Part shown: in pieces, positions 23,942 through 40,146 of the stretch | Position numbering within the stretch: the first letter of the stretch is position 1 | Layout: every line of letters begins with the position of its first letter | From: Dongia deserti | GTDB taxonomy: Bacteria; Pseudomonadota; Alphaproteobacteria; Dongiales; Dongiaceae | Direction of reading: 5' to 3' | NCBI RefSeq assembly: GCF_003574735.1 | Contig: NZ_QORW01000003.1 | Coordinates: 248,001 to 312,000, forward strand | Length of the DNA stretch: 64,000 bases | Made by a program: the position numbers and the translations under genes | The notes under the pieces: model-generated | The model's input: only the letters and a program-made list of their open reading frames with translations | Told to the model about the DNA's origin: nothing | The model's database searches: none

Positions 23942-24490
23942 TCAGAAAGGTGCCCCTGCCCCTTCCTGCAGCAACGGCCAGGACGCATCCTTGTTCGAGA
24001 TGACGGTCACGGGCAGCGGCCACGTGATGCCGAGCCTCGGATCGCTGTATCGCACACCGCGCTCGGCCGAAGGCGTGTACGGCGCCGAAACAAGGTAACT
24101 CACTTCGGCATCGTCGCTCACCGTCTGAAATGCATGCGCAAAGCCCCGCGGCACGTACAGTTGCAGGCGATTTCGGTCGTTCAGCTCAAACCGCTCGTGC
24201 TTCATGAATGTCGGCGACTGCCGCCGCAGATCGACAATGACATCGACGATCGCGCCGGCGATGCAGCGAACCAGCTTGGCCTCGGTATAGGGCGGTAGCT
24301 GATAGTGCATTCCCCGAAGTGTCCCCTTGTGAGCGGAAAACGACGTGTTCTGCTGAACATAGTCGGTGTCCAGGCCATGAGCGGCAAATTCCTCCCGACA
24401 CATGGTGCGCGCGAAGAAGCCGCGATCGTCGCCCTTCTTCTCGAGCTCGATCAGATACGCATCCTGCAGACTGGTCTTGTGAAAGATCAT
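23942..24490 (-). CDS. rfbC: dTDP-4-dehydrorhamnose 3,5-epimerase-family protein (RmlC/RfbC)
   Basis: 182 residues from the ATG at 24488-24490, which overlaps the stop of the upstream gene (ATGA). RmlC features are DDRGFFART, QQNTSFSAHKGTLRGMHYQ with the catalytic-type His62, the FAHAFQ turn and SAERGVRYSDP with LPVTVISNKD near the C terminus. In this operon the other enzymes handle CDP-sugars, so it may epimerise a CDP- rather than a dTDP-4-keto sugar. It is the last gene of the four-gene nucleotide-sugar operon. Confidence 0.9.
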   Translation of the reverse strand: MIFHKTSLQDAYLIELEKKGDDRGFFARTMCREEFAAHGLDTDYVQQNTSFSAHKGTLRGMHYQLPPYTEAKLVRCIAGAIVDVIVDLRRQSPTFMKHERFELNDRNRLQLYVPRGFAHAFQTVSDDAEVSYLVSAPYTPSAERGVRYSDPRLGITWPLPVTVISNKDASWPLLQEGAGAPF

Positions 24491-25845
24491 GCCCCGCCCA
24501 TCTCTCTGCTCAAATCTGGTGAGGAACTGGATCTGCTGCCGCAAAAATACCGCTCCTGCTCCGCGTAAAGAGAATCGACAAGCCGGTCGGGCGGACGCAC
24601 GACGTCCTCGACCGTCAGGACGGCATCCTTGGCAATAGAACGCGCCAGCCGACAGCCGAGGCTTAACCCAATCGGTAACAGCTGTTCCCGACGGATAGCA
24701 TCCATGTTCTCCGCGACGCCGTAGACCTGATACCCGCCAAACTCTTCGATCAGCTCGCCGGCGGCGAGGTCCTTCTTTGCAGTTGCGATTACTCCAACCG
24801 TTGGCGGACCGGCTGGCGCAAGGGTTGCGTCATCGAAGAGCACGGCGCGCGCGACCGAAGTTGGAACCTCGAAGTGACACAGGTGGTACGGCGTGTAGAA
24901 GCAATAGTACGGACCTGTGCCAAGCTTGTAGAGATTTAGGTAATGCTTCTGCACCGGATGGTCGGTCGCGCCCAGCACGAACACCCCGGGCCCGGGCCGC
25001 GCCCCGACCACATAATCGACCAGGCCCGGCCCAGCCGGATCCAGGTAGGGCAGGAATTTCGAGACCGTCATTTCTATCGGCGTCAGTGGCGCATCGGGAT
25101 CGCCGCCCGAGAAGTCGGGACCGATCATTCCGCGCTTCGCAACCCGCATCCCGGTGCCGTTTGCCACGATTGCCTGTTCAAAGGAGATCTTCGTGCCATC
25201 CGCGAACGACGCCACCATTGCCGGCTTTTGCCCCCATTTCCAGGCAAAGGCTTCCTGCGTCGTCGGATTGCGATAGGGATCGTGCAATCCCTTGATGTTT
25301 CCGCAGAGGACCGGCTTCAATCCCAGCCCGGCGACGAAGCGGTAGAGATTCATCTGTACGCCGGGCTGATCTCCGTCCGAGAAGGTGTAGATGACGCCGG
25401 CATGGTCCGCTTTCACCTTCAGTATCGGACCGACTGTTCCATCCAGCTCCGCATTCATGTGCACGACATGTTTGCCTGCATTGATGGCGGCCAGAACTGC
25501 CTGAGCCGCGTATTCGACGGAGCCTGTGACCTCGATGATGGCGTCCAGCCCGGCAGCCGTGGCGAGAGCCAGCGCATCTTCGGTGACCGCCGGCCGGCCG
25601 GCTGAGATAGCGTCTTCCAGTGCTGCTTGCGCATCGCAGACGATTGCTTCGCGACCAGCCTGGCGGAAGGCATCGACTGCCTGCTCCAATCGCCGGCAAG
25701 CGATCGCGCAAAGCTCCATTCCGGACGTCGAATCCAGGATCTGGAGCGCAATGCCCTTCCCCTGGAATCCGGCTCCGACCATGCCCACCTTGATCGGCCG
25801 GCCTTCCGCCTCACGGCGTCGCAATGCAGTGTCGACGATGATCAT
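24487..25845 (-). CDS. NAD(P)-dependent oxidoreductase with C-terminal SAF-like domain
   Basis: 452 residues. A Rossmann motif VGMVGAGFQGKG (about 20-31) is followed by a homoserine-dehydrogenase/Gfo-like substrate region (HVVHMNAELDGTVGP, about 134-148; GNIKGLHDPYRN, about 182-193). The C-terminal part (about 350-430; AKKDLAAGELIEEFGGYQVYG) looks like a SAF domain. Such proteins are often annotated as SAF-domain oxidoreductases and occur in surface-polysaccharide loci. The reaction is unknown; oxidation or reduction of a sugar nucleotide or of a branching group is plausible from context. It overlaps the epimerase gene by four bases. Confidence 0.78.
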   Translation of the reverse strand: MIIVDTALRRREAEGRPIKVGMVGAGFQGKGIALQILDSTSGMELCAIACRRLEQAVDAFRQAGREAIVCDAQAALEDAISAGRPAVTEDALALATAAGLDAIIEVTGSVEYAAQAVLAAINAGKHVVHMNAELDGTVGPILKVKADHAGVIYTFSDGDQPGVQMNLYRFVAGLGLKPVLCGNIKGLHDPYRNPTTQEAFAWKWGQKPAMVASFADGTKISFEQAIVANGTGMRVAKRGMIGPDFSGGDPDAPLTPIEMTVSKFLPYLDPAGPGLVDYVVGARPGPGVFVLGATDHPVQKHYLNLYKLGTGPYYCFYTPYHLCHFEVPTSVARAVLFDDATLAPAGPPTVGVIATAKKDLAAGELIEEFGGYQVYGVAENMDAIRREQLLPIGLSLGCRLARSIAKDAVLTVEDVVRPPDRLVDSLYAEQERYFCGSRSSSSPDLSREMGGA

Positions 25846-25888
25846 TGGAAGCTCGACGGCTGGCGGCGCCCGCCCATGGCAGCACTCT

Positions 25889-26665
25889 TCAATCCGACCA
25901 CACCTTCCAAGGCGGCCCCTCTTTCCAGGTTCGCTCCAAGAGCTCCTTGTCGCGCAAGGAATCCATGCTCTGCCAATAGCCCGTGTGATGATAGCTCGAC
26001 AATTGTCCGGCCTCGATCATGCGCGACATCGGCTCGTTCTCCCAGATAGTGTCGTCGCCGTCGATCAGATCGAAGATCGCGGGCTCGCAAACGAAGAACC
26101 CGCCATTGATCAGGCCGCCATCTGTGATGCCTTTTTCGCGAAACCCGTCGACGCGTGAGCGCTCTCGATTCAGTCGAAGCGCACCATAGCGCCCAGGCTG
26201 CGTGACTGCTGTCAACGTGCACCACCGCCCCAGCCGCCGATGCGTGTCGATGAGCTTGCCAATATCGACATTGCTGACGCCATCACCATAGGTCAGGCAG
26301 AACGCTCCATCGGACAGCAGGTGCCGCGCTCGTTTCAGCCGACCGCCGGTCATGGTATTGATGCCGGTGTCGACAACGGTCACGCGCCAATCCTCCTTCA
26401 CTTGGCCCAGCCATTCGACGCGCCCTGTCTTGAGGTCGATGGTGAAATCGGTGGTGTCCATCTGATATCGCATGAAGTACTCGCGGATCATCTGGACCTT
26501 GTAGCCCCCGATAACCACGAAGTCCTTCAATCCATGGTGAGCATAGAGCTTCATGATGTGCCACATGATGGGCCGCCCGCCTATCTCCACCAGCGGCTTG
26601 GGACGAATAATTGTCTCCTCGCTCAGCCGCGTCCCCAATCCGCCTGCCAACAGCGCCACTTTCAT
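25889..26665 (-). CDS. rfbF: Glucose-1-phosphate cytidylyltransferase
   Basis: 258 residues from the ATG at 26663-26665, which overlaps the upstream stop (ATGA). The nucleotidyltransferase signature is LLAGGLGTRLSEE (about 5-17), followed by RPKPLVEIGGRPIMWHIM. TYGDGVSNVD (about 115-124) holds the metal-binding Asp. The RfbF-specific WHIMKLYAHHG and the C-terminal WKVWSD region fit. It makes CDP-glucose, the entry point to CDP-dideoxy and branched CDP-sugars. CDP-glucose 4,6-dehydratase is not in the window and must be encoded elsewhere if the usual route is used. Confidence 0.92.
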   Translation of the reverse strand: MKVALLAGGLGTRLSEETIIRPKPLVEIGGRPIMWHIMKLYAHHGLKDFVVIGGYKVQMIREYFMRYQMDTTDFTIDLKTGRVEWLGQVKEDWRVTVVDTGINTMTGGRLKRARHLLSDGAFCLTYGDGVSNVDIGKLIDTHRRLGRWCTLTAVTQPGRYGALRLNRERSRVDGFREKGITDGGLINGGFFVCEPAIFDLIDGDDTIWENEPMSRMIEAGQLSSYHHTGYWQSMDSLRDKELLERTWKEGPPWKVWSD

Positions 26666-27744
26666 TGAACCAGCTCCTTCGGCAGGCCAGAGGTTACGCG
26701 TGATGAGAGCCATTCCAGATTCGCAGAGAGCCGCCGTTCCTCAATATGCCGCCGCAAAACCTGCAGGCGCATGAACTGCGACTGCCTGAACTCCCCGTCC
26801 TTGAATCCCATGTCCCGCAGCCCATCGATCAGTCGGAAAATGGACTGAGAAAGCGTGACCTGAGGCCGATAATTGGGGGCCAAGGACTCGAACAGACTGA
26901 AGTCCACGCGGTATGACCGACTGTCCACCGGCGCCTTGGAATTGATGTTGATCGTGGTGCCGGGGAGCGCCTCAGCCACTGCTCGAGCAAGATCTCGCAC
27001 CTGGTAGTTACGATCGTTGGATCCCGTGTTGACAACCAGGTAACGGCCACCGTCTTCCGGCGATCGCAGGATCGCCCAGTCGATCGCGCGCGCCATGTCG
27101 GCGACGTCAATCAGCGGCCGCCAGGGCGATCCGTCGCTCAGGACCGTTATTTCGCCACGTGCAAGCGCGCAGGCGACGAAGTCATTCAACACGAGATCGA
27201 GCCGCAGCCGATCAGACATGCCGCAAGCCGTGGCAAACCGCAGACACGTGATTGTCATACGTGTGTCGAGGCGCCCGAGGTCCTCCTCGGCGCCGACTTT
27301 CGATTTGGCATAAGCCGTGACCGGACCGAGTGGATCACTTTCCCGTCTCGGTGTACTGTCCGCTACGCCATACACGCTGCAGCTCGAAGCAAACACGAAG
27401 TTTCGGACACCGGCGCTTGCTGCCGCTTTCGCGGCGAGTATGGTTGCCGCGCGATTTATGTCCGCCGTCACGCGGGCGAATTGCTCGCCCATCGGGTCAT
27501 TCGATATCGCCGCCAGCTGAACAACAGCTGAATAACCCTCGAACATGCGCGGACTGATCGACCGCACGTCTCCGAAGAACTGTTCGTCGAGCAACTGTTC
27601 GGGAAGCGACTTGGCGCCGGTCAGACAGTGAGCGAAATAACTGTTGTCGAAACCGTGAAGCACGGCACTGGGATGTTGGGCGCGCAGGTGGCGCACGACC
27701 GCCGGCCCGACATAACCCATGTTGCCTAGGACTAGGATTCTCAC
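26662..27744 (-). CDS. NAD-dependent epimerase/dehydratase (extended SDR)
   Basis: 360 residues. The cofactor motif is LVLGNMGYVG (5-13 region), close to the extended-SDR GxxGxxG pattern. The active site has FASSCSVYG (about 118-126) and YAKSK (Tyr145, Lys149). TCLRFATACG and SDGSPWRPLIDVADMARAI are typical of sugar-nucleotide SDRs. It is the first gene of the operon and overlaps rfbF. It likely converts a CDP-sugar (4-reduction, epimerisation or dehydration); which one cannot be read from the sequence. Confidence 0.88.
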   Translation of the reverse strand: MRILVLGNMGYVGPAVVRHLRAQHPSAVLHGFDNSYFAHCLTGAKSLPEQLLDEQFFGDVRSISPRMFEGYSAVVQLAAISNDPMGEQFARVTADINRAATILAAKAAASAGVRNFVFASSCSVYGVADSTPRRESDPLGPVTAYAKSKVGAEEDLGRLDTRMTITCLRFATACGMSDRLRLDLVLNDFVACALARGEITVLSDGSPWRPLIDVADMARAIDWAILRSPEDGGRYLVVNTGSNDRNYQVRDLARAVAEALPGTTININSKAPVDSRSYRVDFSLFESLAPNYRPQVTLSQSIFRLIDGLRDMGFKDGEFRQSQFMRLQVLRRHIEERRLSANLEWLSSRVTSGLPKELVQ

Positions 27745-28348: not shown

Positions 28349-29962
28349 ATGCTCTTTAACTCATCATCATTTCTCTTTGGTTTTTTTCCTGTCGTCCTGG
28401 CAGGGTTTTTTGTGTTGTCCAGACTTGGGCACCAGCGGTTGGTGGGCATCTGGCTCACCGGGGCGTCGCTCTTTTTCTATGCGTGGTGGAACCCGATTTA
28501 CCTGCCACTGCTCCTGGGCAGCATGATTTTCAACTACGTCCTCGGAGGCTTGCTGTTGAGCAAGCCGAGCCGGACGCTCCTGGCTTTGGGTGTCGCGGCC
28601 AATCTGGCGCTCCTTGGCTATTACAAATACGCCGGCTTTCTGGTGCAGACGGTCGATCAGCTTGCGGGTCTGGACTGGGCGATTCCGAATATCGTCCTGC
28701 CGCTGGCCATATCATTCTTCACGTTCCAGCAGATCGCCTATTTGGTTGACGCGCGCGATGGTGCGGTCGTCGAGCATGACTTCCTCAACTATTGCCTCTT
28801 CATAACCTTCTTTCCGCATCTGATCGCGGGGCCGATCACGCATCACCGAGAGATGTTCCCGCAGTTCAACGACCCCAACCTGTTCCGGCCAAAGATGGAG
28901 AATATCGCTGTCGGCCTGACGCTGTTTCTGATCGGGCTGGCCAAGAAGGTGGCGATCGCCGACACAATGGGCACCTTTGCGCGGCCGGTATACGAGGCCG
29001 CCGCGGACGGTGTGCCGGTCACCTTTCTCGAGGCGTGGAGTGGCGCCGTGTCATACACGCTGCAGATCTATTTCGATTTCTCCGGATACACTGACATGGC
29101 CATCGGCCTCGGCCTCATGTTCGGTATCAGCCTGCCGCCGAATTTCGACAGCCCTTTGAAGGCGCGCAACATCATCGAGTTCTGGTCGCGTTGGCACATG
29201 ACCCTTACCAGGTTTGTGACAGCCTACATCTACAATCCCGTCGTGGTCCGCATGACGCGGCGGCGCGCGAGCAAGGGTTTGCCGCTGCCCAAGCGCAGCA
29301 TCATGCCGGCGGGCGCCTTCATGAGCTTGGTGGCATTCCCGACAATCCTGTCCATGTTCGTGATCGGGGTCTGGCATGGAGCCGGATGGCAGTTCGCTGT
29401 ATTCGGCCTGGTCCATGGAGCGTATCTGACGATCAACCATGCGTGGCGCGCTGTCAAAGTGCGCCTCGGCTTCCCGATCGACAGCAATCGCCCTGTCGCG
29501 GTCGTGGCGTCGGTGCTGCTGACTTTCGTTTGCGTCGTCATAGCGCTGGTGTTCTTCCGGGCCGATAACGTGCCGGCAGCGTTGAACCTGTTGACCGGAA
29601 TGACCGGCGGGCACGGCATTGTTCTTCCGGAACCGGCCATCTCGCTGCCTGGCGCCGCGGCCATCGCCGACGCACTCAACCTGTCGATAGCCAGCCTGGA
29701 GTATTTCGGCCCTGCGCAGATGATGTGGATCGTCGGCTTGCTCGCCATCGTCTGGACCATGCCCAACTCCCAGCAGCTCATGCGCCACTACCGCACGGCA
29801 CTCACGGCACAGCCAAAGCCGAGTTCGTTGCAGATCGCGTTCCCGGCCGTGGTTTGGCGCCCGAACGCAATCGTCGGCCTTGCTGTCGGCTGGCTCGGGT
29901 TCTTCCTGATTATCCGCGCCATCTCGGCTGCGCCGATGGAATTCCTGTATTTCCAGTTCTGA
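28349..29962 (+). CDS. MBOAT-family O-acyltransferase
   Basis: 537 residues from the ATG at 28349 (MLFNSSSFLF, the standard start of AlgI-like proteins). It has about ten to twelve membrane helices. The family's conserved histidines are visible: His283 in FWSRWHMTL and the likely catalytic His343 in GVWHGAGWQF. YFDFSGYTDMAIG (241-253) is another AlgI hallmark. Proteins of this type pass an acyl group across the inner membrane to a polysaccharide, usually with an SGNH partner. It begins a four-gene cassette (MBOAT, FkbH, ACP, SGNH) with gaps of 9, -4 and -4 bases, divergent from the nucleotide-sugar operon. Confidence 0.93.
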   Translation: MLFNSSSFLFGFFPVVLAGFFVLSRLGHQRLVGIWLTGASLFFYAWWNPIYLPLLLGSMIFNYVLGGLLLSKPSRTLLALGVAANLALLGYYKYAGFLVQTVDQLAGLDWAIPNIVLPLAISFFTFQQIAYLVDARDGAVVEHDFLNYCLFITFFPHLIAGPITHHREMFPQFNDPNLFRPKMENIAVGLTLFLIGLAKKVAIADTMGTFARPVYEAAADGVPVTFLEAWSGAVSYTLQIYFDFSGYTDMAIGLGLMFGISLPPNFDSPLKARNIIEFWSRWHMTLTRFVTAYIYNPVVVRMTRRRASKGLPLPKRSIMPAGAFMSLVAFPTILSMFVIGVWHGAGWQFAVFGLVHGAYLTINHAWRAVKVRLGFPIDSNRPVAVVASVLLTFVCVVIALVFFRADNVPAALNLLTGMTGGHGIVLPEPAISLPGAAAIADALNLSIASLEYFGPAQMMWIVGLLAIVWTMPNSQQLMRHYRTALTAQPKPSSLQIAFPAVVWRPNAIVGLAVGWLGFFLIIRAISAAPMEFLYFQF

Positions 29963-29971
29963 GGCGCTCAA

Positions 29972-31891
29972 ATGGAGCAGCTCGCCTGGCTACCCATCCA
30001 CCCCGATTTCGCCGGCGCGCTAAAGGCGGCGCGCCTTGTGGCCGATCCGGAAGAAAAACTGTCTCGGTTGGTGGAGCTGGCCAACTACCGCCGGAACTTC
30101 GTCGCGACCGAAAAGCTGGATCGCACAGCAGCGCAGCACCTGAGTAGCGCGCCCAATCTTCTGTCGGCGCTGCAGTTGCGGCAGGCTCGCCTGGCAGTCC
30201 TCTCGTCTCACACGGTTGACCACTTGGTGCCGGCAATTCGCATTGCCGGTCTGGGGCGCCGTACTACCTTGTCCACACACGTGGGTCCCTATGGGCTCTA
30301 TCGGCAAGCGCTGCTGGACTCCAATCCCGATCTCGTTGCCTTCGCGCCACAGTTCCTGCTGCTGGCGCTTGATGCACGCGACTACACATCGGACATCGCG
30401 CTGAGCGCGTCAGAAGCGGAGGTCACTGAAGCGATCGTTAAGCACATTGACGAGTTGCGGGTACTCTGGCGCGCGGGGCGGGAAAGATATGCCGCCCAAG
30501 TGATCCAGCAGACGTTCGTTGCAAGCTCCCCAACCCTCTTTGGCTCTTATGACGGCCTTGTCCCCGCTTCCCCGGGCGCCTTCGTTGAGCGGCTGAACGA
30601 TGCCGTTCGGTCTGCAGCACGCGAGGAAGGCGTCCTGCTGCTCGATGTAGCGTGGCTCGGGCGGCGTTGGGGCAACGAGGCGATTGGAGATCCCGTTCGG
30701 TGGCACCAGGCAAAACAGCTGGTGGCGCCGCACTTCGCTCCCCAATACGGCGACTGGGTGGCGCGAATCATTGCGGCATCGCTTGGCCTGTCTCGCAAGT
30801 GCCTCGTGCTTGATCTGGACAATACGATCTGGGGCGGCGTGGTCGGGGATGACGGGGTCGAAGGCATCCGACTGGGTCAAGGCGACCCGCTCGGGGAGGC
30901 CTATCTGGAATTCCAGCGCTATGTTGCGGCGCTCGGCAAACGTGGGATCGCGCTCGCAATCTGCAGCAAGAACGATCCTGCCACCGCCGAGGCTGCGTTC
31001 TCGGAGCACCCGGAAATGGTGCTGCACCGTACGGATATTGCGAGCTTCGTCGCGAATTGGGACGACAAAGCCAGCAATTTGCGGCGGATCGCGCAAGAGC
31101 TCGGCCTCGGGCTCGACAGTTTCGTCTTTGTCGACGACAACCCCGCCGAGCGCCACATCGTCCGTCGCGAGCTGCCGATGGTCGCCGTTCCCGAGCTGCC
31201 GGATGATGTCGCCAACTACCCAGGCAGCTTGGCTGATGCAGGGTATTTCGAGGCAGCCTCCTTCACATCCGATGACGTGATGAGGGCTCGCGCCTATCAG
31301 GCGAACGTAGAGCGGCAGGCAGTTCTGGCGCGCACGACCGACATGGAAGGATATCTCAAGAACCTGTCCATGACACTGATCGCTTCGGAGATCAGGCCAG
31401 TCGATCTGCCGCGCGCCTCGCAACTGATCAACAAGAGCAATCAGTTCAACCTGACGACACGTCGCTACACGGAAGCCGAGCTCCAGCGTCTGGTCGACGA
31501 TCCTGCGATCCTGGCCATGTGCTTCAGGCTGAAGGATCGCTTCGGCGACAACGGCCTGATCAGTGTCATCCTCGCGCGGCCCGATGTGCACTGGGGCAAG
31601 AACGCGTTCCTAATTGACACATGGCTCATGAGCTGCCGGGTGCTCGGTCGGCAGGTTGAGGCGGCTGCCCTCGAAGTGCTGGCAAACGAAGCGGCCAATC
31701 GCGGCGCGCAGTCGCTGATCGGCGAATATCGTCCGACCCCGCGGAATGGACTGGTGTCCGACCACTATGCGAAGCTGGGTTTCGCGCCGGCGTCAGCGCC
31801 ACGGGACGAGTCCAATAGTGCGAGCTTCTGGCGCTTTGACATCCAAACGCCTCCGCCGCGCCACTTCATAACGGTGGAAAGACTGTCATGA
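29972..31891 (+). CDS. FkbH-like HAD-superfamily protein (HAD-IIIC)
   Basis: 639 residues in three parts: an N-terminal region of about 265 residues of SGNH-like appearance, a HAD domain (about 275-420) with the nucleophile motif LVLDLDNTIWGG (Asp281, Asp283), AICSKND and FVFVDDNPAER, and a C-terminal GNAT-like part (about 505-620; RFGDNGLISVIL, DTWLMSCRVLGR). FkbH-type enzymes load a glyceryl group from 1,3-bisphosphoglycerate onto an acyl carrier protein. The ACP gene follows with a 4-base overlap, so the pair should produce a glyceryl-ACP or a related acyl-ACP for the MBOAT protein. Confidence 0.9.
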   Translation: MEQLAWLPIHPDFAGALKAARLVADPEEKLSRLVELANYRRNFVATEKLDRTAAQHLSSAPNLLSALQLRQARLAVLSSHTVDHLVPAIRIAGLGRRTTLSTHVGPYGLYRQALLDSNPDLVAFAPQFLLLALDARDYTSDIALSASEAEVTEAIVKHIDELRVLWRAGRERYAAQVIQQTFVASSPTLFGSYDGLVPASPGAFVERLNDAVRSAAREEGVLLLDVAWLGRRWGNEAIGDPVRWHQAKQLVAPHFAPQYGDWVARIIAASLGLSRKCLVLDLDNTIWGGVVGDDGVEGIRLGQGDPLGEAYLEFQRYVAALGKRGIALAICSKNDPATAEAAFSEHPEMVLHRTDIASFVANWDDKASNLRRIAQELGLGLDSFVFVDDNPAERHIVRRELPMVAVPELPDDVANYPGSLADAGYFEAASFTSDDVMRARAYQANVERQAVLARTTDMEGYLKNLSMTLIASEIRPVDLPRASQLINKSNQFNLTTRRYTEAELQRLVDDPAILAMCFRLKDRFGDNGLISVILARPDVHWGKNAFLIDTWLMSCRVLGRQVEAAALEVLANEAANRGAQSLIGEYRPTPRNGLVSDHYAKLGFAPASAPRDESNSASFWRFDIQTPPPRHFITVERLS

Positions 31892-32160
31892 CCGAGCAAG
31901 AGATCTTTTCCGAGTTGTCGAGCGTGTTTCATGACGTCTTCGACGACGAGACGATCACACTCCGTCCCGAGACAACGGCCGATGACATCGATGGGTGGGA
32001 CAGTCAGGCTCATGTTACTCTCGTCGTGGCGACGGAGATGCACTTCGGAATCAGGTTCCGCACTGCGGAACTGGAGTCGCTCCGCAATGTCGGCGATTTC
32101 GTGCAGCTGATTCAATCTCGTCTAGTCGATTCAAAGGCTGCTGGGAAGGATGGGGGATGA
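31888..32160 (+). CDS. Acyl carrier protein
   Basis: 90 residues, acidic, with the phosphopantetheine attachment motif at DGWDSQAHV (Ser39). The helix after it (VTLVVATEMHFGIRF) matches helix II of ACPs. It overlaps both the FkbH gene and the SGNH gene by ATGA junctions, so all three are translationally coupled. Its partner would be the FkbH-like loader on one side and the MBOAT protein on the other. Confidence 0.92.
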   Translation: MTEQEIFSELSSVFHDVFDDETITLRPETTADDIDGWDSQAHVTLVVATEMHFGIRFRTAELESLRNVGDFVQLIQSRLVDSKAAGKDGG

Positions 32161-33164
32161 GGCTTGAAAGGCAAGCAGCGGGTGTCTCGTTCGGCGGCCA
32201 CAAAGCTCTTGTGGCGAGCCCTGTGAGATACATGATCGCGATCCTTGGCGGCGCGATTGCCGCCCTGGCGGTGTTCTGCGCCACCTATGGCGCCCTATAC
32301 GTCACCGGCTATCTCCCGCCGCCGCCATTGTCAAACAACATATGCACCGATGAGAAGCTGCTCTTCTTTCGCAGGAATCCACCCGCAGAGCCGAATTTTG
32401 TGGTGATCGGTTCATCCATCGCCTGGCGCAACATCGATAGCGCCGCCATCGCCAGCGGGATTCCCGGCGCACAACCGCTGAACGGTGGTTTCTGCGGATT
32501 GATGGTGCATCAGTCGGCCTTCGTCGCGGATTGGATGATAAGCCGTTGGCCTGCCATTCGGGGCGTCCTGCTGATCGTGTCTCCCATGGACTTCAAGGCC
32601 TGCAAGGGCACCGGGCAGATATTCGACCCAGTCGATGCCAACGAGTTCACATTCGAAGGCGCGCCAATGTGGAGCTTCTACCTGCGATACTTCGATCCGA
32701 TATCGCTTCATCACAACGTCATGAGGGAGATGTCGGAGCGCGAACAGGAGCGTATTCTGAAGGTGAGTAGACGATTCACCAAATACGGCGACAAGCCGTT
32801 TGATACGAAAGAGGATCGGGGCCTGTTCTATGGCCGAATGCGCGATCCGGATCCAGCTTGCCTCACCGCCCTTCGCTCCTTGGCCACGACGCTCGCTGAG
32901 CAGGGCCGATCCTTCATGGTCGTCGTCACACCGATTCATCCCGATTGGCACGCTCAGTACGATGCCGACCGCCGTTTCACGAAGCACGTTGTGTGGCAGC
33001 TCACCGATGCGCTAACCGGTACGCGTGCGCGAATTTGGGATGCAGACGCTGCGCGCGTCATTGACTCATCAGGATTCATCGATGCCGTCCATCTCCGCTG
33101 GTCTGCAGCGACGATCCTAACCAGCGCGATTGTCGAGCACTTTCGTGCCAATAGAGGTCTATGA
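32157..33164 (+). CDS. Membrane-anchored SGNH-like acyl-transfer protein
   Basis: 335 residues from the ATG at 32157 (ATGA overlap with the ACP stop). One membrane anchor (about 22-50) precedes a periplasmic domain. VVIGSSIAWR (about 82-91) carries the SGNH nucleophile-type Ser86/Ser87, LIVSPMDF is a middle strand, and Asp309-x-x-His312 in FIDAVHLRW matches the C-terminal D-x-x-H dyad of SGNH/DltD-like proteins. It probably accepts the acyl group moved by the MBOAT protein and passes it to the glycan, or finishes an acylation. No family name is certain. Confidence 0.75.
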   Translation: MRLERQAAGVSFGGHKALVASPVRYMIAILGGAIAALAVFCATYGALYVTGYLPPPPLSNNICTDEKLLFFRRNPPAEPNFVVIGSSIAWRNIDSAAIASGIPGAQPLNGGFCGLMVHQSAFVADWMISRWPAIRGVLLIVSPMDFKACKGTGQIFDPVDANEFTFEGAPMWSFYLRYFDPISLHHNVMREMSEREQERILKVSRRFTKYGDKPFDTKEDRGLFYGRMRDPDPACLTALRSLATTLAEQGRSFMVVVTPIHPDWHAQYDADRRFTKHVVWQLTDALTGTRARIWDADAARVIDSSGFIDAVHLRWSAATILTSAIVEHFRANRGL

Positions 33165-33225: not shown

Positions 33226-34080
33226 TCAGGCCGTCCGATTCCAGGCCGCGCGCAGCTCGTTAGCGGTTGCGGCGAGCAGGCCGCATGTGCCGATGGCCGC
33301 CTGCGCGCCGGCAACGAGGGCGGCATTGTCGGGAGCGATCGAACCGTCCGGCAGCAAAAGATTGTTTTCGAAGCCCACCCTGACATGGCCGCCGAGTAAG
33401 GCGCCGGCGGTGACGCACGCGTTCTCGCGAACGCCGAACGCACACACGCTCCAGTGGGCGAAACGCGGGATCTCGGCCGCAAGGAAAGGCAACAGGTCGG
33501 CAGGAGTCGATCGCTGCCGAGCCGTGTAGCGGCCCAGGACATAGAGCACCGGCACGTCCTCGAACGGCACCAGACCGCGCGCCTTGAGTGCAGCGAGCTT
33601 CACCGCTTCTTCCGGCGAATAAAGGATGATCTGAGGAATCACCCTCTCGGTCCTCAGCCAGGCGAGAAAGCCGGCAAAGGAGGACTCGTGGCTCGCATCC
33701 GGCACGAGCTCCCTCAGTGCCAGCGAGACCGCTTCGGGGCGCACGTCACGAACGACCGCCATCTGCTCGTCCGATCTGTAGATGCCCAGGGCCTCGCTCG
33801 TGATCTGAACGACCATCCGCTCCCCGACTGCGGCGCGAATTGCCGCGATTGCGGTCCGGTAGGCATCCGCGTTCAGGAGGTGGCCGCCGCTTCGATCGCG
33901 AACATGGACGTGGATCATGCAGGCGCCGGCATCGAGACACGCGCTCGCTGTCGCCGCGATTTCCTCCTGGGTCAGCGGCAGGGCCGGATGATCGGCCTTG
34001 GTGCGCCTGCCGCCATTCGGAGCGACGGCAATCGCGACCGGCAAGGTGCCATTCGGATCGATCGGATCATGGGTGGCCAT
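33226..34080 (-). CDS. Beta-keto acid cleavage enzyme (BKACE, DUF849 family), copy 1
   Basis: 284 residues. The metal-binding motif is MIHVHVRD (His57, His59), following AVAPNGGRRTKADHPALPLTQEE. Other family features are the QITSEALG strand, FAHWSVCAFG, and GGHVRVGFENNLLLPDG near the C terminus with the conserved R-x-G-x-E. BKACE enzymes react a beta-keto acid with acetyl-CoA to give acetoacetate and a new acyl-CoA; 3-keto-5-aminohexanoate is the founding substrate. It is divergent from a class III aminotransferase with likely shared RpiR sites between them, so an aminotransferase product may be its substrate. Confidence 0.9.
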   Translation of the reverse strand: MATHDPIDPNGTLPVAIAVAPNGGRRTKADHPALPLTQEEIAATASACLDAGACMIHVHVRDRSGGHLLNADAYRTAIAAIRAAVGERMVVQITSEALGIYRSDEQMAVVRDVRPEAVSLALRELVPDASHESSFAGFLAWLRTERVIPQIILYSPEEAVKLAALKARGLVPFEDVPVLYVLGRYTARQRSTPADLLPFLAAEIPRFAHWSVCAFGVRENACVTAGALLGGHVRVGFENNLLLPDGSIAPDNAALVAGAQAAIGTCGLLAATANELRAAWNRTA

Positions 34081-34083
34081 CAG

Positions 34084-34129
34084 TCAACTCAATTGTTTCA
34101 ATTTCTAACGCAGTGTAACACATGTTGCA
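34084..34129. promoter_or_regulatory. Candidate RpiR operator pair between BKACE and aminotransferase genes
   Basis: Two elements lie in the 106-base divergent gap: the minus-strand 11-mer TGAAACAATTG (34090-34100) and the imperfect palindrome TGTAACACATGTTGCA (34114-34129). The 11-mer recurs exactly at 36410-36420, and TGTAACA-C/A-AT recurs at 36380-36389 upstream of the rpiR-type gene. Sharing between two promoters of one module supports binding by that regulator; this is inference. Confidence 0.5.
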
Positions 34130-34186
34130 TAGCCAGGGTGAAGCGCCTATCGTGCATCTTGAGCACAGTTGCTGCCGGAGTGTCAC

Positions 34187-35509
34187 ATGACCCGCATCCT
34201 GCACCGCCAGATCGGCATGAATCTGCCGACAGCAGTCGGCGGCAGAGGCATTTACCTGTTCGATCAGGATGGACGATCCTATATCGACGCCTCCGGTGGC
34301 GCGGCAGTGTCCTGCCTTGGCCATGGCCACCCGGATGTCACTGCTGCAATCCATGCTCAGGCCGATCGGCTGGCCTATGCCCATACGAGCTTCTTCACCA
34401 ATGATCCGGCGGAAGCGCTCGCCGAGCGGCTAATCGCCGGCGCGCCGCAAGGGATCAGCCATGTCTATTTCGTTTCCGGCGGATCGGAAGCGGTGGAAGC
34501 AGCGCTCAAGATGGCGCGGCAGTATTTTGTGGAACTGGGGCAGCCGCAAAGGCGCAACATCATCGCCCGCCGGCAGAGCTATCACGGCAACACGCTTGGC
34601 GCGCTCGCGACCGGCGGCAACGAGATGCGGCGCGCTCAGTTCCGGCCGCTGCTGATCGAGACGCACCATATCGCGCCCTGTTTTGCCTACCGATACCAGG
34701 AGCCTGGGGAAACCGACAAAGGCTACGCCGCGCGCGCCGCGCAGGCACTGGAGGACAAGATCCTGGAGCTCGGTGCTGAAACGGTGCTGGCCTTCGTGGC
34801 CGAGCCGGTCGTGGGCGCGACGGCCGGTGCGGTGCCGCCGGTCGCGGACTATTTCAAGCACATCCGCGCGATCTGCGATCGCTACGGCATTCTTCTGATC
34901 CTGGATGAGGTGATGTGCGGGATGGGGCGCACTGGCACGCTTCATGCTTCCGAGCAGGATGGCATCGCCCCTGACCTGATGACCATCGCAAAAGGGCTCG
35001 GCGGCGGCTATCAGCCGATTGGCGCGGTCCTGCTCAGCGAACGCATCTTCAAGGCCTTTGCCGATGGGTCCGGCGCGTTCCAGCACGGTCACACCTATAT
35101 TTGCCATCCGATGGCATGTGCAGCTGCGCTGGCTGTGCAGGAAGCGATCGTGCGGGATGATCTGTTGGCCAACGTCAGGACGATGGGCGCCCATCTCACG
35201 CGGCGTTTGCGCGAGCGCTTCGGCAATCATGCTCACGTCGGCGACGTTCGCGGCCGGGGACTGCTGATGGGAGTGGAACTGGTCGAGGACCGCTCGATGA
35301 AAACGCCCTTTGACCCGAAACGCAAAGTGAACGCCCGGGTCAAGCAGGAGGCGATGGCGCGCGGACTGGTGATCTATCCCGGTGGCGGCACGATCGATGG
35401 CGTGCGCGGCGACCACGTGCTGCTTGCGCCGCCTTTCATCATTGATCAGACCGCGATCGACCTGGTGGTGGAACGTCTCGGCGATGCGATCGATGCCGCG
35501 ACTGCGTGA
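34187..35509 (+). CDS. Class III PLP-dependent aminotransferase
   Basis: 440 residues from the ATG at 34187, chosen for the CCGGAG six bases upstream. The PLP lysine is Lys269 (MTIAKGLGGG), and Asp240 (LILDEVMCG) is the pyridine-nitrogen partner. SGGSEAVEAALKMARQY and RRQSYHGNTLGAL are the phosphate-binding parts. A substrate of omega-amino or beta-amino acid type would give the keto acid used by the divergent BKACE; that link is inference. Its stop lies three bases from that of the convergent RpiR gene. Confidence 0.92.
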   Translation: MTRILHRQIGMNLPTAVGGRGIYLFDQDGRSYIDASGGAAVSCLGHGHPDVTAAIHAQADRLAYAHTSFFTNDPAEALAERLIAGAPQGISHVYFVSGGSEAVEAALKMARQYFVELGQPQRRNIIARRQSYHGNTLGALATGGNEMRRAQFRPLLIETHHIAPCFAYRYQEPGETDKGYAARAAQALEDKILELGAETVLAFVAEPVVGATAGAVPPVADYFKHIRAICDRYGILLILDEVMCGMGRTGTLHASEQDGIAPDLMTIAKGLGGGYQPIGAVLLSERIFKAFADGSGAFQHGHTYICHPMACAAALAVQEAIVRDDLLANVRTMGAHLTRRLRERFGNHAHVGDVRGRGLLMGVELVEDRSMKTPFDPKRKVNARVKQEAMARGLVIYPGGGTIDGVRGDHVLLAPPFIIDQTAIDLVVERLGDAIDAATA

Positions 35510-35512
35510 CGG

Positions 35513-36364
35513 TCAGTCAGGCAGATAGGCACCCAGCGCGCGGAGCACCGCTTCAGCCTCTCTCACGCGCACCGCGGCAGCAGGTCCTCGGCGCGCGAGC
35601 ATGGTGGCGGCCAGGGCCTCGACGATTGCGACGGCCGCCGCGATCGACGGAAAGAATGACGGGCTCTCCGTCGAGAAGCGCAGGGTGACGTCGGCATGTC
35701 GGGCAATCGGTGCGGCCATGCTGTCGGCAAGGGCGACAACGGGCGCGCGATGCCGACGGGCAGTCTCCACCACCGGCCCAAGCTCCCGCGAATAAGGCGT
35801 AAACCCGATCACCACCACGGCATCTTTCTTGCCGATGGTGGCAAGCTCCGCCTCCAGCGCACCGCCATCCCCGCCCAGCAGCGCGACATCCCGGCAGAAC
35901 ATGCGGCACAGGTAGACCAGCGTATGCGCGGGCGCGCGGCAGCTTCGGAAACCGGCAACCCGTATCCGTTCCGCCCGTTCCAAGATGGAACAGGCCTTGC
36001 CAACCTCCCTGCTTCCATTGCCGGCTGCCGCCAGATTGGCCGCGGCCGCTTTCAGCGAATCCACGAAGACCGCCTGCGAGCCCCGCTGGACCAGGGCGTC
36101 GGCCCTGATGGCAAAGGGCATGCTGCCGGAGCGGAGCCGACTCTCGAATGGTCGCCGCAGTGCTGCCCAGTCCTCAAACCCCAGGCGCCGTGCCAGCCTC
36201 ACGAAGGTTGTCGGCGTCGCACCCGAACGGGAGGCGAGGACGCGCATCGAAACCAGCGCCACGTCGTCCGGATGATCGACCAGAAACCGCGCGGCCTTGC
36301 GCAGCTCTGCGCTCAGTTCCGGGAGCTGCGCAAGGATACGTGACTGGACCGTCTCATAGTTCAT
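35513..36364 (-). CDS. MurR/RpiR-family transcriptional regulator
   Basis: 283 residues from the ATG at 36362-36364 (MNYETVQSRI). Helix-turn-helix about 15-75 (LRKAARFLVDHP, SRSGATPTTFVRLARRLGFEDW); SIS domain about 115-255 (RIRVAGFRSCRAPAHTLVYL, AVVVIGFTPYSRE, VVALADSMAAPIARHADV). It is convergent with the aminotransferase and divergent from the TRAP binding-protein gene. Matching candidate operators lie upstream of it and between the BKACE and aminotransferase genes, which suggests control of the whole module and of itself. Confidence 0.92.
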   Translation of the reverse strand: MNYETVQSRILAQLPELSAELRKAARFLVDHPDDVALVSMRVLASRSGATPTTFVRLARRLGFEDWAALRRPFESRLRSGSMPFAIRADALVQRGSQAVFVDSLKAAAANLAAAGNGSREVGKACSILERAERIRVAGFRSCRAPAHTLVYLCRMFCRDVALLGGDGGALEAELATIGKKDAVVVIGFTPYSRELGPVVETARRHRAPVVALADSMAAPIARHADVTLRFSTESPSFFPSIAAAVAIVEALAATMLARRGPAAAVRVREAEAVLRALGAYLPD

Positions 36365-36379
36365 GGGTCTCGTCCGCCA

Positions 36380-36425
36380 TGTAACAAATATTCCTCTACG
36401 TTGACTTTCTGAAACAATTGTATCA
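36380..36425. promoter_or_regulatory. Candidate RpiR operators between the regulator and TRAP genes
   Basis: TGTAACAAAT (36380-36389) and the near-perfect 16-bp palindrome TGAAACAATTGTATCA (36410-36425; 7 of 8 half-site pairs match). Both resemble elements at 34084-34129. They lie 16-61 bases before the regulator start and about 75-120 before the TAXI gene start. Confidence 0.55.
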
Positions 36426-36498
36426 TAGGTTGGAGAACCGTTGACACAAAGATCAAGGGCCGGCCCAATGGCCCGCGAGAGCACCAAGGGAGGATAAG

Positions 36499-37482
36499 AT
36501 GAAGCACAACCGAATGATCGGTCGTGGCGCGCAGATTGCTGCCTTGTCGGCCGCGCTTCTGCTTACAGATGGCGCAGTCGCGCAGGAGCAGCAGTTCGTG
36601 ACGATCGGCACCGGTGGCGTTACCGGCGTCTATTACGCCGCAGGGGGCGCCATCTGCCGGCTGCTCAACAAGGATCGCAAGACGCATGGCATCCGCTGCT
36701 CGGTCGAATCGACCGGCGGATCGTCGTTCAACGTCAACACCATCAAGGCCGGCGAGCTCGACTTCGGCATGGCCCAGTCGGACGTGCAGTACAACGCCTA
36801 CAACGGCGAGGAGAGCTTCAAGGAGGGCGGTGCCCACACCGATCTGCGTGCGGTGTTCTCCGTTCATCCGGAGCCGTTCACGGTCCTCGCGCACCCCGAT
36901 TCTGGCGTAACCAAGTTCGAGGACTTCAAGGGCAAGCGCTTCAATGTCGGCAATCCCGGATCGGGCACACGCGCCTCGATGGAACGCTTGCTTGCGGCCA
37001 TGGGCTGGTCGCTCAAGGACTTCTCGCTCGCCTCGGAACTGAAGGCGGATGAACATGGGCCGGCTCTGTGCGACCGCAAGATCGACGGCTTCTTCTATGG
37101 TGTCGGCCACCCCTCGGCCAACATCCAGGACCCGACCACGACCTGCGCTGCGAAGCTCATTCCGCTGACCGGCCCGGCCATCGACAAGCTGGTGGACGAA
37201 AACCCGTACTACGCCAAGGCGACCATCCCGGGCGGTCTCTACAAGAACAACCCCGACGATACCCAGACCTTCGGCGTGCTTGCGACCCTGGTCACCTCAG
37301 CGAATACGTCCGAAGAATCCGTCTATCAGCTCGTCAAAGCGGTGTTCGAGAATTTCGACGAGTTCAAGGCGCTGCATCCGGCCTTTGCCAATCTCGATCC
37401 CGCCAAGATGATCAAGGATGGCCTCTCTGCGCCGCTGCATCCCGGCGCAGAGAAATATTACAAGGAGAAGGGCTGGCTGTAA
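36499..37482 (+). CDS. TRAP transporter solute-binding protein, TAXI family
   Basis: 327 residues with GGGAGG upstream. The signal peptide is about 1-28 (ending GAVAQ). TAXI features are [49 protein letters not shown] compressed across about 72-99, [14 protein letters not shown] and the C-terminal [17 protein letters not shown] proteins pair with fused DctQM permeases, which is what follows at 37552. The ligand is unknown; a beta-keto/amino acid or precursor fits the BKACE-aminotransferase context. Confidence 0.94.
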
Positions 37483-37497
37483 GCTGCGCGATCCGAC

Positions 37498-37532
37498 CGG
37501 GACCGGCGGGCTGGAGCGGCCCGCCGGTCCCG
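37498..37532 (+). terminator. Strong hairpin between TAXI binding-protein and permease genes
   Basis: A perfect 14-bp GC-rich stem (37498-37511 with 37519-37532) with a 7-base loop, 15 bases after the stop. There is no U tract, so it probably stabilises the upstream mRNA and lowers read-through into the permease gene, similar to the hairpin at 16032 in the other importer operon. Confidence 0.5.
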
Positions 37533-37551
37533 TCCGGCTTTGGGAGGCCTC

Positions 37552-40146
37552 ATGAGCGGATCCAGGCAGCAGCCGGCCGACGTCGATCTTGAGCAACTGG
37601 TCGCGGATGTCGATGCCGGCGGCCGCGCGCCCAAAGGAGCCGTCGGGACTCTCCTGCTCTGCATCGCGCTTGCCTGGGCGCTGTTCCAGCTCTGGTACGC
37701 ATCGCCCCTGCCCTTCGTCGTCGGGTTCGGGGTCTTCAATGACACGGAAGCGCGGGCCATTCATCTCGGCTTCGCGTTGTTTCTGGCCTTCACTGCCTAC
37801 CCGGCCCTGAAATCCTCGCCGCGCGACAAAGTGCCCGTGCAGGATTGGATCCTGGCGGTGCTGGGTGCCTTCGCGGGCGCCTATCTGTTCCTGTTCTATA
37901 ACGCGCTCGCCGGGCGGCCCGGCCAGCCGACGACGCTCGACCTCCTCGCCGGCGGCGCCGGGATCCTTCTGCTGCTGGAGGCGACGCGCCGCACGCTCGG
38001 CCTGCCGATGGTGGTCGTCGCCAGCGTGTTCATCTTCTTCACCTTCGCCGGGCCCTGGATGCCGGACGTCATCCAGCACAAGGGCGCCTCGGTCACCAAG
38101 TTCCTCAATCACCAATGGCTGACGACGGAGGGCGTGTTCGGCATCGCACTCGGGGTATCGACCAGCTTCGTGTTCCTGTTCGTGCTGTTCGGCACGCTGT
38201 TGGAAAAGGCCGGCGGCGGGAACTGGATGATGCAGATCTCGATCGCGCTGCTTGGCCACCTGCGCGGCGGCCCGGCCAAGGTGGCGGTTGTTTCCTCCGC
38301 TTTGAACGGCGTCGTCTCCGGCTCCTCCGTTTCCAATGTCGTCTCCGGCGGCATCTTCACAATCCCGCTCATGAAGCGGACCGGCCTTTCGGGCGTGAAA
38401 GCGGGCGCGATCGAGGCCTCCGCCTCGATCAACGGCCAGATCATGCCGCCTGTCATGGGCGCGGCCGCCTTCCTGATGGTCGAGTATGTCGGCGTGCCCT
38501 ACGCGGAGATCGTCAAGCACGCCGTGCTGCCCGCCATCTTCTCGTATCTGGCGCTGCTCTACATGGTCCATCTCGAGGCAGTGAAGATCGGCCTCAAGCC
38601 GATTCCTCAGGCCGTGGCGCCAAGGAAAGAGCGGCTCCTGCGAATGGGCCTGGGCCTTTCCGGCACGATCGCGACCATCTGCATCCTCTATTACGGCATT
38701 CTGGCCATCGAAGCCCTGTTCGGCGCCGCGGCACCGTGGTTGCTGAGTGCTGCAGGCATCGCGCTCTATGTGGCGACGATCTGGTATGCCGCGCGGTTTC
38801 CGGATCTCGCCCTCGATGATCCGGACACGCCGATCGAGCATTTGCCGCGCGCCTGGGACGTCACGCGCACGGGTCTCGACTTCCTCATTCCCATCGCCGT
38901 GCTGCTGTGGTGCCTGATGGTGGCACAGTTATCTCCTGGCCTGTCGGCCTTCTGGGCAACGGTATCCATCATCGGCATTCTCGTGACGCGCAAGCCGCTG
39001 ATGGCGCTCTTCCGCAAGCAGTCGCTTGCACCCGCCATCCGGGCGGCGGCCGCCGATCTGGTGGACGGCCTGGCGCTTGGCTCCCGCAACATGACCGGCA
39101 TTGCGGTCGCGACCGCAACTGCCGGCATCGTCGTCGGCACCATCACGCTGACCGGGCTTGGCCTGATGATGACGGAGTTCGTCGAGTTTATCTCGGGCGG
39201 CAATGTCATCCTGATGCTGATCCTGATCGCGGCCATCAGCCTCGTGCTCGGGATGGGCATTCCGACCACCGCCAACTACATTCTGGTCGCGACCCTGATG
39301 GCGCCGGTCGTGGTCGATCTCGGGGCGCAGGCCGGACTGGCGATCCCGCTGATCGCGGTCCATCTTTTCGTGTTCTATTTCGGCATCATGGCCGACATCA
39401 CGCCGCCGGTCGGGCTCGCGGCCTTCGCCGCGGCCGCGATCTCGAAGGAGGATCCGATCGCCACCGCCTTCCAGGGCGGCTTCTACTCGTTGCGCACCGC
39501 GATCTTGCCTTTCGTCTTCATCTTCAATCCGGCGATGCTGCTGATCGACAACGAGGGCTGGATTCATACGGCTTTCGTTGCCACGGCGTCGCTGATCGCC
39601 ATCCTGCTGTTCTCCGCTGCTGCCATGAACTGGTTCGTGACGAAATCGCGCTTGTGGGAAAGCGCGGTTCTGCTGCTGGTCTGCTTCACGCTGTTCCGGC
39701 CGGACTGGTGGCTCAACCAGTTCTCTCCACCGTACGAGGAGGTGCCCGCCTCCGAGTTCCTCGCCGCAGTCGAGCAGGCGCCGCCCAAGGGCAGGATCTC
39801 CTTCGTCGTCGAAGGCATCAACCTGATGGGCGATGATGTCCGCAAGACCGTCAACGTCCGGCTCGACGAGGCCGGCGATCCGATGCAACGGCTGCAGGAA
39901 GCGGGCCTCAGCGTCACGCCGGCGGGCGACACGCTAGTGATCACGAACGTCGCCTTCGGATCCTATGCCAAGCGCATCGGGCTCGAGGTCGGATACGATA
40001 TCGTGGCCGTCGTGAAGAAGGCCGACCAGCCCTCCATCGCCATCCCCATCGGGATCAGTCTCGCCATCGCCGGGGCGATCGCGGCGCTGCAATTTGCTCG
40101 ACGGCGAGCCAGAACGGCGGAGCCCGTGCGCACGCCCAGCCGGTGA
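37552..40146 (+). CDS. TRAP transporter fused permease (4TM+12TM) with C-terminal DUF3394-like domain
   Basis: 864 residues from the ATG at 37552 (GGGAGG upstream). The first half has small-subunit (DctQ-like) helices, and the DctM-like large subunit follows from about 110. TRAP motifs include SGSSVSNVVSGGIFTIPLMKR, EASASINGQIMPPVMGAAAF and LGMGIPTTANYILVATLMAPV, plus FYFGIMADITPPVGLAAFAA. The last 150 residues hold a soluble region (about 725-835, starting EEVPASEFLAAVEQ) of DUF3394 type, often found at the end of TAXI-linked permeases, then one final helix. Import is driven by an ion gradient. Confidence 0.93.
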   Translation: MSGSRQQPADVDLEQLVADVDAGGRAPKGAVGTLLLCIALAWALFQLWYASPLPFVVGFGVFNDTEARAIHLGFALFLAFTAYPALKSSPRDKVPVQDWILAVLGAFAGAYLFLFYNALAGRPGQPTTLDLLAGGAGILLLLEATRRTLGLPMVVVASVFIFFTFAGPWMPDVIQHKGASVTKFLNHQWLTTEGVFGIALGVSTSFVFLFVLFGTLLEKAGGGNWMMQISIALLGHLRGGPAKVAVVSSALNGVVSGSSVSNVVSGGIFTIPLMKRTGLSGVKAGAIEASASINGQIMPPVMGAAAFLMVEYVGVPYAEIVKHAVLPAIFSYLALLYMVHLEAVKIGLKPIPQAVAPRKERLLRMGLGLSGTIATICILYYGILAIEALFGAAAPWLLSAAGIALYVATIWYAARFPDLALDDPDTPIEHLPRAWDVTRTGLDFLIPIAVLLWCLMVAQLSPGLSAFWATVSIIGILVTRKPLMALFRKQSLAPAIRAAAADLVDGLALGSRNMTGIAVATATAGIVVGTITLTGLGLMMTEFVEFISGGNVILMLILIAAISLVLGMGIPTTANYILVATLMAPVVVDLGAQAGLAIPLIAVHLFVFYFGIMADITPPVGLAAFAAAAISKEDPIATAFQGGFYSLRTAILPFVFIFNPAMLLIDNEGWIHTAFVATASLIAILLFSAAAMNWFVTKSRLWESAVLLLVCFTLFRPDWWLNQFSPPYEEVPASEFLAAVEQAPPKGRISFVVEGINLMGDDVRKTVNVRLDEAGDPMQRLQEAGLSVTPAGDTLVITNVAFGSYAKRIGLEVGYDIVAVVKKADQPSIAIPIGISLAIAGAIAALQFARRRARTAEPVRTPSR

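Follow-up and report, generated by a model that had tools for sequence, protein, structure and literature searches.

We analysed a 64,000-nucleotide stretch of the Dongia deserti genome (RefSeq assembly GCF_003574735.1, contig NZ_QORW01000003.1, positions 248,001 to 312,000; hereafter the window), in which four open reading frames (ORFs) lie head to tail on the + strand at 28349-33164. They encode an MBOAT-superfamily acyltransferase, an FkbH protein, an acyl carrier protein (ACP) and an SGNH-fold protein, in that order (Table 1). The gap between the MBOAT and FkbH genes is 9 nt, and the FkbH-ACP and ACP-SGNH junctions are 4-nt overlaps. An earlier, sequence-only reading of the window had proposed these genes as a cassette for glycan acylation with an FkbH-made acyl group. 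We found the ORFs at the place and on the strand it gave, and all the catalytic residues it named are present and conserved in our alignments. Two features beyond that reading make the system resemble Dlt, the machinery (DltA, DltB, DltC, DltD and DltX) for D-alanylation of teichoic acids in Gram-positive cell walls: a C-terminal FLYFQF shuttle motif in the MBOAT, and a long stretch between two of its histidines. The 6.13 Mb genome holds one PF03062 MBOAT, one FkbH and two genes of the cassette SGNH family. An Rfam scan of the window returned no match, and a promoter and terminator scan gave counts no different from those of shuffled sequence.

Table 1. Position of the cassette genes, their key features and the neighbouring nucleotide-sugar genes in the window.
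Feature	Position	Strand	Details
MBOAT acyltransferase/channel, DltB/AlgI superfamily	28349..29962	+	537 aa
FkbH (HAD-IIIC)	29972..31891	+	639 aa; proposed glyceryl loader
Acyl carrier protein (ACP)	31888..32160	+	90 aa; phosphopantetheine site Ser39, codon 32002-32004
SGNH-fold protein	32157..33164	+	335 aa; N-terminal helix 22-50, GSS (S86/S87), D309, H312
MBOAT residues 296-331, proposed ACP-docking stretch	29234..29341	+	signature residues N296, R304, R306, P331
MBOAT catalytic His343 (WHG)	29375..29377	+	invariant 19/19
MBOAT C-terminal F532-L-Y534-F-Q-F537, FXYXXF shuttle motif	29942..29959	+	19/19 aligned cassette MBOATs
RfbC-like, DRL, RfbF and SDR nucleotide-sugar genes	23942..27744	-	divergent; possible acceptor-sugar source

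The FkbH protein scored 286.9 bits against TIGR01686, above the cut-off of 146.65. Its Asp281 and Asp283, which form the HAD DXD motif in LDLDNT, were present in 20/20 aligned rows, and Cys331, Cys555, Asp388 and Asp389 were invariant in the same rows (20/20). The ACP serine, in GWDS, was invariant in 21/21 rows. ACP family models matched this protein only under their cut-offs. Its closest solved relative in a profile search of the PDB was the ACP structure 2lml (1.3e-25), which we take to be GmACP3 of Geobacter metallireducens, an ACP with a 'putative role in lipopolysaccharide biosynthesis'. By analogy with characterised members of its family, FkbH probably charges the ACP with glyceryl taken from 1,3-bisphosphoglycerate. 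Passages of two papers describe FkbH domains of suomilide-type clusters as loading glycerate, likely from this metabolite (PMC13122637, PMC10143770). The cassette protein shares with such natural-product loaders an FkbH domain above the curated cut-off, the HAD DXD motif and an ACP partner. It differs from them in its setting: there is no polyketide synthase or nonribosomal peptide synthetase here, and the ACP gene lies beside that of a membrane acyltransferase.

The MBOAT matched PF03062 at 72 bits (cut-off 27), and its best PDB sequence match was DltB (6bug, 1.1e-29). The same structure was the top Foldseek match of its predicted model (pLDDT 77; E 3.6e-10, TM-score 0.54 by query length). 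The catalytic histidine, in VWHGA, aligned with the WHG histidine of DltB; one MBOAT with an unclear start (locus L002) was omitted from this alignment. In the SGNH protein, the GSS motif was present in 20/20 rows, and Asp309 and His312 in 19/20, the other row being cut by a contig end. No Pfam or NCBIfam family was assigned to the SGNH protein. VIA-align places its AlphaFold2 model (pLDDT 85) in the SGNH fold, with Z up to 15.4 and PatB among the rows, and helix 22-50 is a probable membrane anchor. When the model was searched with Foldseek, the six best rows by E-value comprised four chains of DltD and two of 3bma, a structure named D-alanyl-lipoteichoic acid synthetase (best E 5.8e-5). A profile search of the PDB up to an E-value of 5 returned only DltD, weakly (0.074 and 0.19).

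We scanned named genomes with the FkbH protein and obtained 68 loci, in which genes were called from open frames and not with a gene finder; SGNH genes outside our two SGNH alignments were called from motifs. The MBOAT-FkbH-ACP-SGNH order, on one strand, was found at 19/68 loci. These span alpha-, beta- and gammaproteobacteria with tight spacing kept, and the holders include Belnapia, Roseomonas, Siccirubricoccus, Acetobacter, Polaromonas, Stutzerimonas, Pseudomonas and Coralloluteibacterium, among others. At L018 the contig begins inside FkbH and the remainder of the cassette is present. At another fifteen loci, FkbH has an MBOAT on its own strand within ~5 kb, in shuffled order and mostly with an SGNH-like gene: SGNH-FkbH-ACP-MBOAT (L020, L021, L032, L034, L047), FkbH-ACP-MBOAT-SGNH (L025, L040, L042, L044, L045) and SGNH-MBOAT-FkbH-ACP (L024) are among these orders. 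An MBOAT is thus linked at 34/68 loci; the other 34 include several short contigs and nine Methylobacterium or Methylorubrum loci. All four parts occur in five phyla (Pseudomonadota, Cyanobacteriota, Acidobacteriota, Gemmatimonadota and Planctomycetota), and looser forms in Bacillota. The exact order among FkbH relatives favours the earlier view of the four genes as one system. The outcome that had been set beforehand as counting against that view, namely no co-occurrence of the four genes at other loci, proved false.

Because samples of the same family (17 genomes) and the same order (16 genomes) were tiny, we used a class sample of 289 genomes that had not been chosen by the cassette. It held 30 TIGR01686 FkbH matches in 26 genomes, and PF03062 MBOATs in 96 genomes. 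An MBOAT lay within 5 kb on the same contig for 10 of the 29 FkbH matches outside the window genome (8 on the same strand), against 0.087 expected by uniform placement. Taken with the exact order at 19/68 loci, this rules out a chance neighbourhood of the four genes, both counts ignoring the kinship of the genomes. The cassette SGNH family was found in 3/17 genomes of the window's family, one of them cut at a contig end.

The FkbH-linked MBOATs mostly form a clade of their own. A tree of 84 MBOATs placed the window protein in a clade of 39 (38 FkbH-linked and one with FkbH on the opposite strand; SH-aLRT 99) that contained 0/33 unlinked MBOATs. Most of the unlinked rows in this tree had come from the top of the PF03062 scores, a bias in the comparison that led us to make a second tree and a class-wide survey of MBOAT spacing. 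The second tree drew on a search of the class with the cassette-MBOAT profile, which added 11 stretches, with 12 high-scoring unlinked MBOATs (one a repeat). It excluded 11 long-branch rows (6 linked, 3 near FkbH on the opposite strand and 2 unlinked). What persisted was a clade of 35 rows, all of them linked (support 96). The linked and unlinked counts hold one repeat each, since L024 and L080 represent the same contig and the same MBOAT is found in both L113 and L150.

The same MBOATs differ from unlinked ones in the stretch between His283 (RWH) and the catalytic His343, which are 60 residues apart in the window protein. The spacing was 60 in 34/34 readable clade members and ranged over 46-59 in the remaining 12 linked or near rows that could be read (46 altogether), versus 40 in 38/42 readable unlinked MBOATs; eight rows had no readable histidine pair. 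The DltB spacing is 47. The four unlinked exceptions were L062 (with an FkbH ~6 kb away), L146 (with an ACP gene close by) and two that are unexplained, L142 and L148. Arg304 and Arg306, within the stretch, are near-invariant in the FkbH-linked clade and gapped in 41/43 unlinked MBOATs. A passage of PMC11035591 identifies the matching DltB stretch as horizontal helix HC, the seat of the carrier DltC (Met302, Val305, Ile306, Met309, Lys312 and Arg317). The window model has a continuous helix at 271-308 in this stretch, with low confidence over ~261-290.

The spacing survey covered 141 class MBOATs distinct in the stretch: 108 short (36-41), 19 long and 14 unreadable, some of them fragments. L086 was assigned to the long group by hand, as a looser pattern had caught a false pair and the stricter pattern gave 60. 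FkbH or a cassette-type ACP lay within 3.5 kb of 0/108 short-spacing versus 10/19 long-spacing MBOATs. Flanks of the short group reached at least 2.5 kb on both sides for 77 and fell under 1.5 kb on one side for 26, so a neighbour could be missed at some of them. The separate clade, the DltB-like carrier-docking stretch and the recurrent FkbH linkage support a reading of the cassette MBOAT as a kind that would take its acyl group from ACP, not CoA.

All 19 aligned cassette MBOATs, the window's included, end in EFLYFQF. Parts of PMC12148441 describe the FXYXXF motif and its role as an acyl shuttle. Among linked or near MBOATs, 46/51 end in FXYXXF, one is cut by a contig end and four lack the motif. 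Three of these four (L077, L082 and L088) are 402-443 aa, about DltB length, and each has in its gene run a same-strand microprotein of 36-50 aa with a transmembrane-like stretch and an FXYXXF end; at L077 the run is MBOAT - DltX-like - SGNH-like - ACP - FkbH. The three microproteins reached no Pfam family. Small FXYXXF-ending ORFs of this kind numbered eleven in the 2.75 Mb of loci examined, a sample rich in MBOAT loci. DltX-like FXYXXF microprotein ORFs were also seen near MBOATs not linked to FkbH (L224, L225 with two, L226, L230 and L194).

We consider it likely that the cassette is a carrier-protein-fed relay for envelope acylation, Dlt-like in its working, in which FkbH replaces the ligase DltA. 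To judge from its family, FkbH would draw on a glycolytic acyl phosphate, with D-1,3-bisphosphoglycerate the likeliest, and place D-glyceryl on the phosphopantetheine of ACP Ser39. Comparison with DltB-DltC suggests that the acyl-ACP would then dock at the His283-His343 stretch, on the cytoplasmic side of the MBOAT. The MBOAT, through His343, may pass the acyl group to Tyr534 of FLYFQF on the outer side, a chemistry proposed by analogy with PatA and DltX. The serine of the SGNH GSS motif would accept it and esterify a hydroxyl of a polymer outside the cell, probably a polysaccharide.

Several observations weigh against this relay or narrow it. Its cargo, docking and acceptor are parts that we infer. 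The earlier proposal of acylation with an FkbH-made group is strengthened in part, by the linkage of the genes as one system and by an MBOAT of a kind pointing to an ACP donor; its glyceryl cargo and glycan acceptor stay conditional. On the SGNH side, VIA-align ranks other SGNH proteins first, PatB included, with no DltD among the 50 rows listed, and for the Foldseek matches to DltD and 3bma the TM-score by query length is only 0.36-0.42, with a root-mean-square deviation of at least 12 A. Profile comparison of the SGNH families of the two commonest architectures found only a D-x-x-H patch (E 0.098); the two families are thus not detectably related, and the last step seems to be served by different SGNH lineages. 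The SGNH gene is also separable from the rest. The second gene of its family in the window genome (contig C7, L072:8073-9068) lies apart from the only PF03062 MBOAT and the only FkbH of that genome; it starts where a glycosyltransferase gene ends, and formyl and pyruvyl transferases are encoded close by.

The MBOAT and FkbH surveys add further points of this sort. The clade of 39 leaves out nine of the 47 linked MBOATs, seven of which have long branches. In the second tree, 35/42 linked or near rows belong to the pure clade; one step further out, a group with support 86 comprises 40 linked or near rows plus two unlinked ones, L142 and L146. The linked MBOAT of L042 has neither a fused motif nor any microprotein that we found, and the fused FXYXXF is unspecific, with a looser form matched by 96/108 short-spacing MBOATs. 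Nine of the 19 long-spacing MBOATs have no FkbH or cassette-type ACP within 3.5 kb; because of these nine, long spacing looks necessary, not sufficient, as a mark of a carrier-fed MBOAT. FkbH itself occurs in only 4/17 genomes of the window's family. In the class sample, 19/29 FkbHs lack a PF03062 match within 5 kb, some of them on short contigs; at two of these (L097 and L101) the cassette-MBOAT profile detected a distant MBOAT on the opposite strand. FkbH-ACP thus also serves other uses.

A plasmid of Skermanella mucosa, pSM-2 (L107:6881-9347), carries a cassette-family SGNH gene paired with a short-spacing MBOAT gene, and no FkbH or ACP is annotated in that stretch. This pair counts against the relay and would fit ordinary O-acetylation, in which the MBOAT and SGNH protein use acetyl-CoA and the FkbH-ACP genes of a separate pathway merely lie alongside. 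PMC12148441, in the parts that bear on this, likewise holds that non-Dlt MBOAT/SGNH pathways use acyl-CoA. We regard this explanation of the cassette as very unlikely: the FkbH-linked MBOATs mostly have their own clade, with a stretch absent from AlgI-like MBOATs, and both gene order and tight spacing are kept across three proteobacterial classes.

We also assessed the surroundings of the cassette, where the nucleotide-sugar genes of Table 1 run divergently from it. They encode an RfbC-like epimerase, a DRL protein, a glucose-1-phosphate cytidylyltransferase (RfbF; TIGR02623, above cut-off) and an SDR. We take DRL to be the DXR-like isomeroreductase family. A DXR-type enzyme could rearrange and reduce a keto-sugar, and the genes are thus possibly a route to a CDP-linked branched-chain sugar. 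The sequence-only reading had taken this operon as a hint of the acylation target. RfbF and SDR genes lie near the cassette at 6/20 other loci, five of which also have a strong DRL match, in differing arrangements; the set recurs in L002, L003, L010, L012 and L015, and partly in L019. At the other 14 none was seen in the stretch covered. With RfbF and SDR at only six of the 20, we rejected the operon as an invariant component and regard it as a recurrent neighbour.

Other neighbours are varied. L002 also has a glycosyltransferase gene and a polysaccharide export gene nearby, and in Belnapia-type loci genes for a glycosyltransferase and an acyltransferase lie some kilobases downstream. L004 has a glycosyltransferase gene in its vicinity and L014 an LpxR gene. 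At nine cassettes that lack the sugar set, the surroundings were judged by eye, and ten chosen proteins were scanned; these were transporters, an esterase, a reductase and others. On pSymB of Sinorhizobium meliloti 1021 (~619-645 kb; L105), we observed an MBOAT - possible SGNH - FkbH run upstream of ABC-exporter genes that resemble KpsM/KpsT by eye. The FkbH there is split over two frames in the 1021 record and in a single piece in most strains listed. On the other side of the window cassette, at 33226-40146, lie genes for a beta-keto acid cleavage enzyme, a class III aminotransferase, an RpiR/SIS-type regulator, an NMT1-like (TAXI) protein and a DctM-type transporter, which look catabolic.

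The acceptor is likely an extracytoplasmic glycan. A lipid or a small secreted metabolite in its place seems unlikely to us: glycosyltransferase, nucleotide-sugar or export genes lie near several cassettes, genes judged by eye to be exporter-like come after the S. meliloti locus, and the MBOAT-SGNH pairs described in parts of PMC12148441 act on envelope polymers. On the side of a lipid or metabolite acceptor, several of the cassettes that we term type A lie among genes with no evident glycan role (judged partly by eye), and the MBOAT of a suomilide-type cluster is proposed, in a passage on that cluster, to acylate the hexose of a peptide.

Cargo taken from D-1,3-bisphosphoglycerate would make the glyceryl group D. 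Gellan carries L-glycerate according to passages of two papers (PMC9104527, PMC9737242). We found a VOC protein near FkbH at four other loci (L074, L105, L108 and L109), scoring 21.6-58.3 bits against a methylmalonyl-CoA epimerase model, below its cut-off of 114.95; one of the four also matches methylmalonyl-CoA epimerase by PDB sequence. On a Rhodobacteraceae plasmid the run is ACP-FkbH-MBOAT-(hypothetical protein with GSSR and D-x-x-H)-VOC, beside sulfotransferase genes. With such neighbours, an epimerising branch that acts on an acyl-thioester is conceivable; the window cassette has no VOC gene. The relay could be right and its cargo not plain D-glyceryl, the product being epimerised, reduced or methylated, or another acyl phosphate being used. 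The VOC genes speak for this, as do natural-product FkbH domains, which in parts of PMC13122637 and PMC10143770 feed glycerate that is later methylated or sulfonated. We judge a modified cargo rather unlikely for the window cassette, which comprises four genes only, with no epimerase, dehydratase or methyltransferase within.

Compared with known systems, the relay we favour works like Dlt and is not Dlt. It shares with Dlt a carrier protein, an MBOAT, an SGNH protein and an FXYXXF acyl shuttle, and in the three variant loci L077, L082 and L088 only, a separate DltX-like microprotein. Its MBOAT is nearest to DltB by sequence and fold, and its SGNH protein nearest to DltD by Foldseek E-value. 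It differs from Dlt in having FkbH where Dlt has the adenylating ligase DltA (family scans matched none of the four proteins to an adenylating-enzyme family), in an ACP that the DltC model does not match, and in a shuttle motif fused to the MBOAT and not on a separate DltX. Dlt proper was rejected as an identity, as there is no DltA and the MBOAT scored 184.8 bits against the DltB equivalog TIGR04091, under its cut-off of 375.

The cassette resembles PatA-PatB and AlgI systems in its FXYXXF fused at the MBOAT C-terminus and its SGNH partner. It differs from them by its carrier protein: the operon holds an ACP and FkbH, whereas passages of PMC12148441 hold PatAB and AlgI to use acyl-CoA. The surveyed MBOATs that we labelled AlgI-like have a histidine spacing of 40, against 60 in the window protein and its clade. 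Our search of the open-licence literature found no paper joining MBOAT, SGNH, DltB and acyl carrier protein, and FkbH and MBOAT together only in two natural-product papers.

We tentatively suggest, at somewhat less than even confidence, that FkbH-ACP-MBOAT-SGNH is a general second class of carrier-fed envelope acylation beside Dlt, in five phyla so far, with glyceryl as its cargo. Its chassis would combine a fused or DltX-like tyrosine shuttle with varied SGNH proteins, and, at loci where a VOC gene of methylmalonyl-CoA-epimerase type is near FkbH, the VOC protein would flip D- to L-glyceryl-ACP. If true, this flip could explain L-glyceryl esters such as those of gellan. A passage of a 2025 paper (PMC12148441) describes MBOAT/SGNH pathways other than Dlt as lacking a carrier protein, and the cassette is a counter-example to that statement. 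The histidine spacing, the FXYXXF motif and an FkbH or ACP neighbour may be of use in telling carrier-fed MBOATs from CoA-fed ones. The cassette also offers candidate enzymes for glyceryl esters on bacterial polysaccharides, and it suggests how bacteria could export acyl groups from glycolytic intermediates to the envelope.

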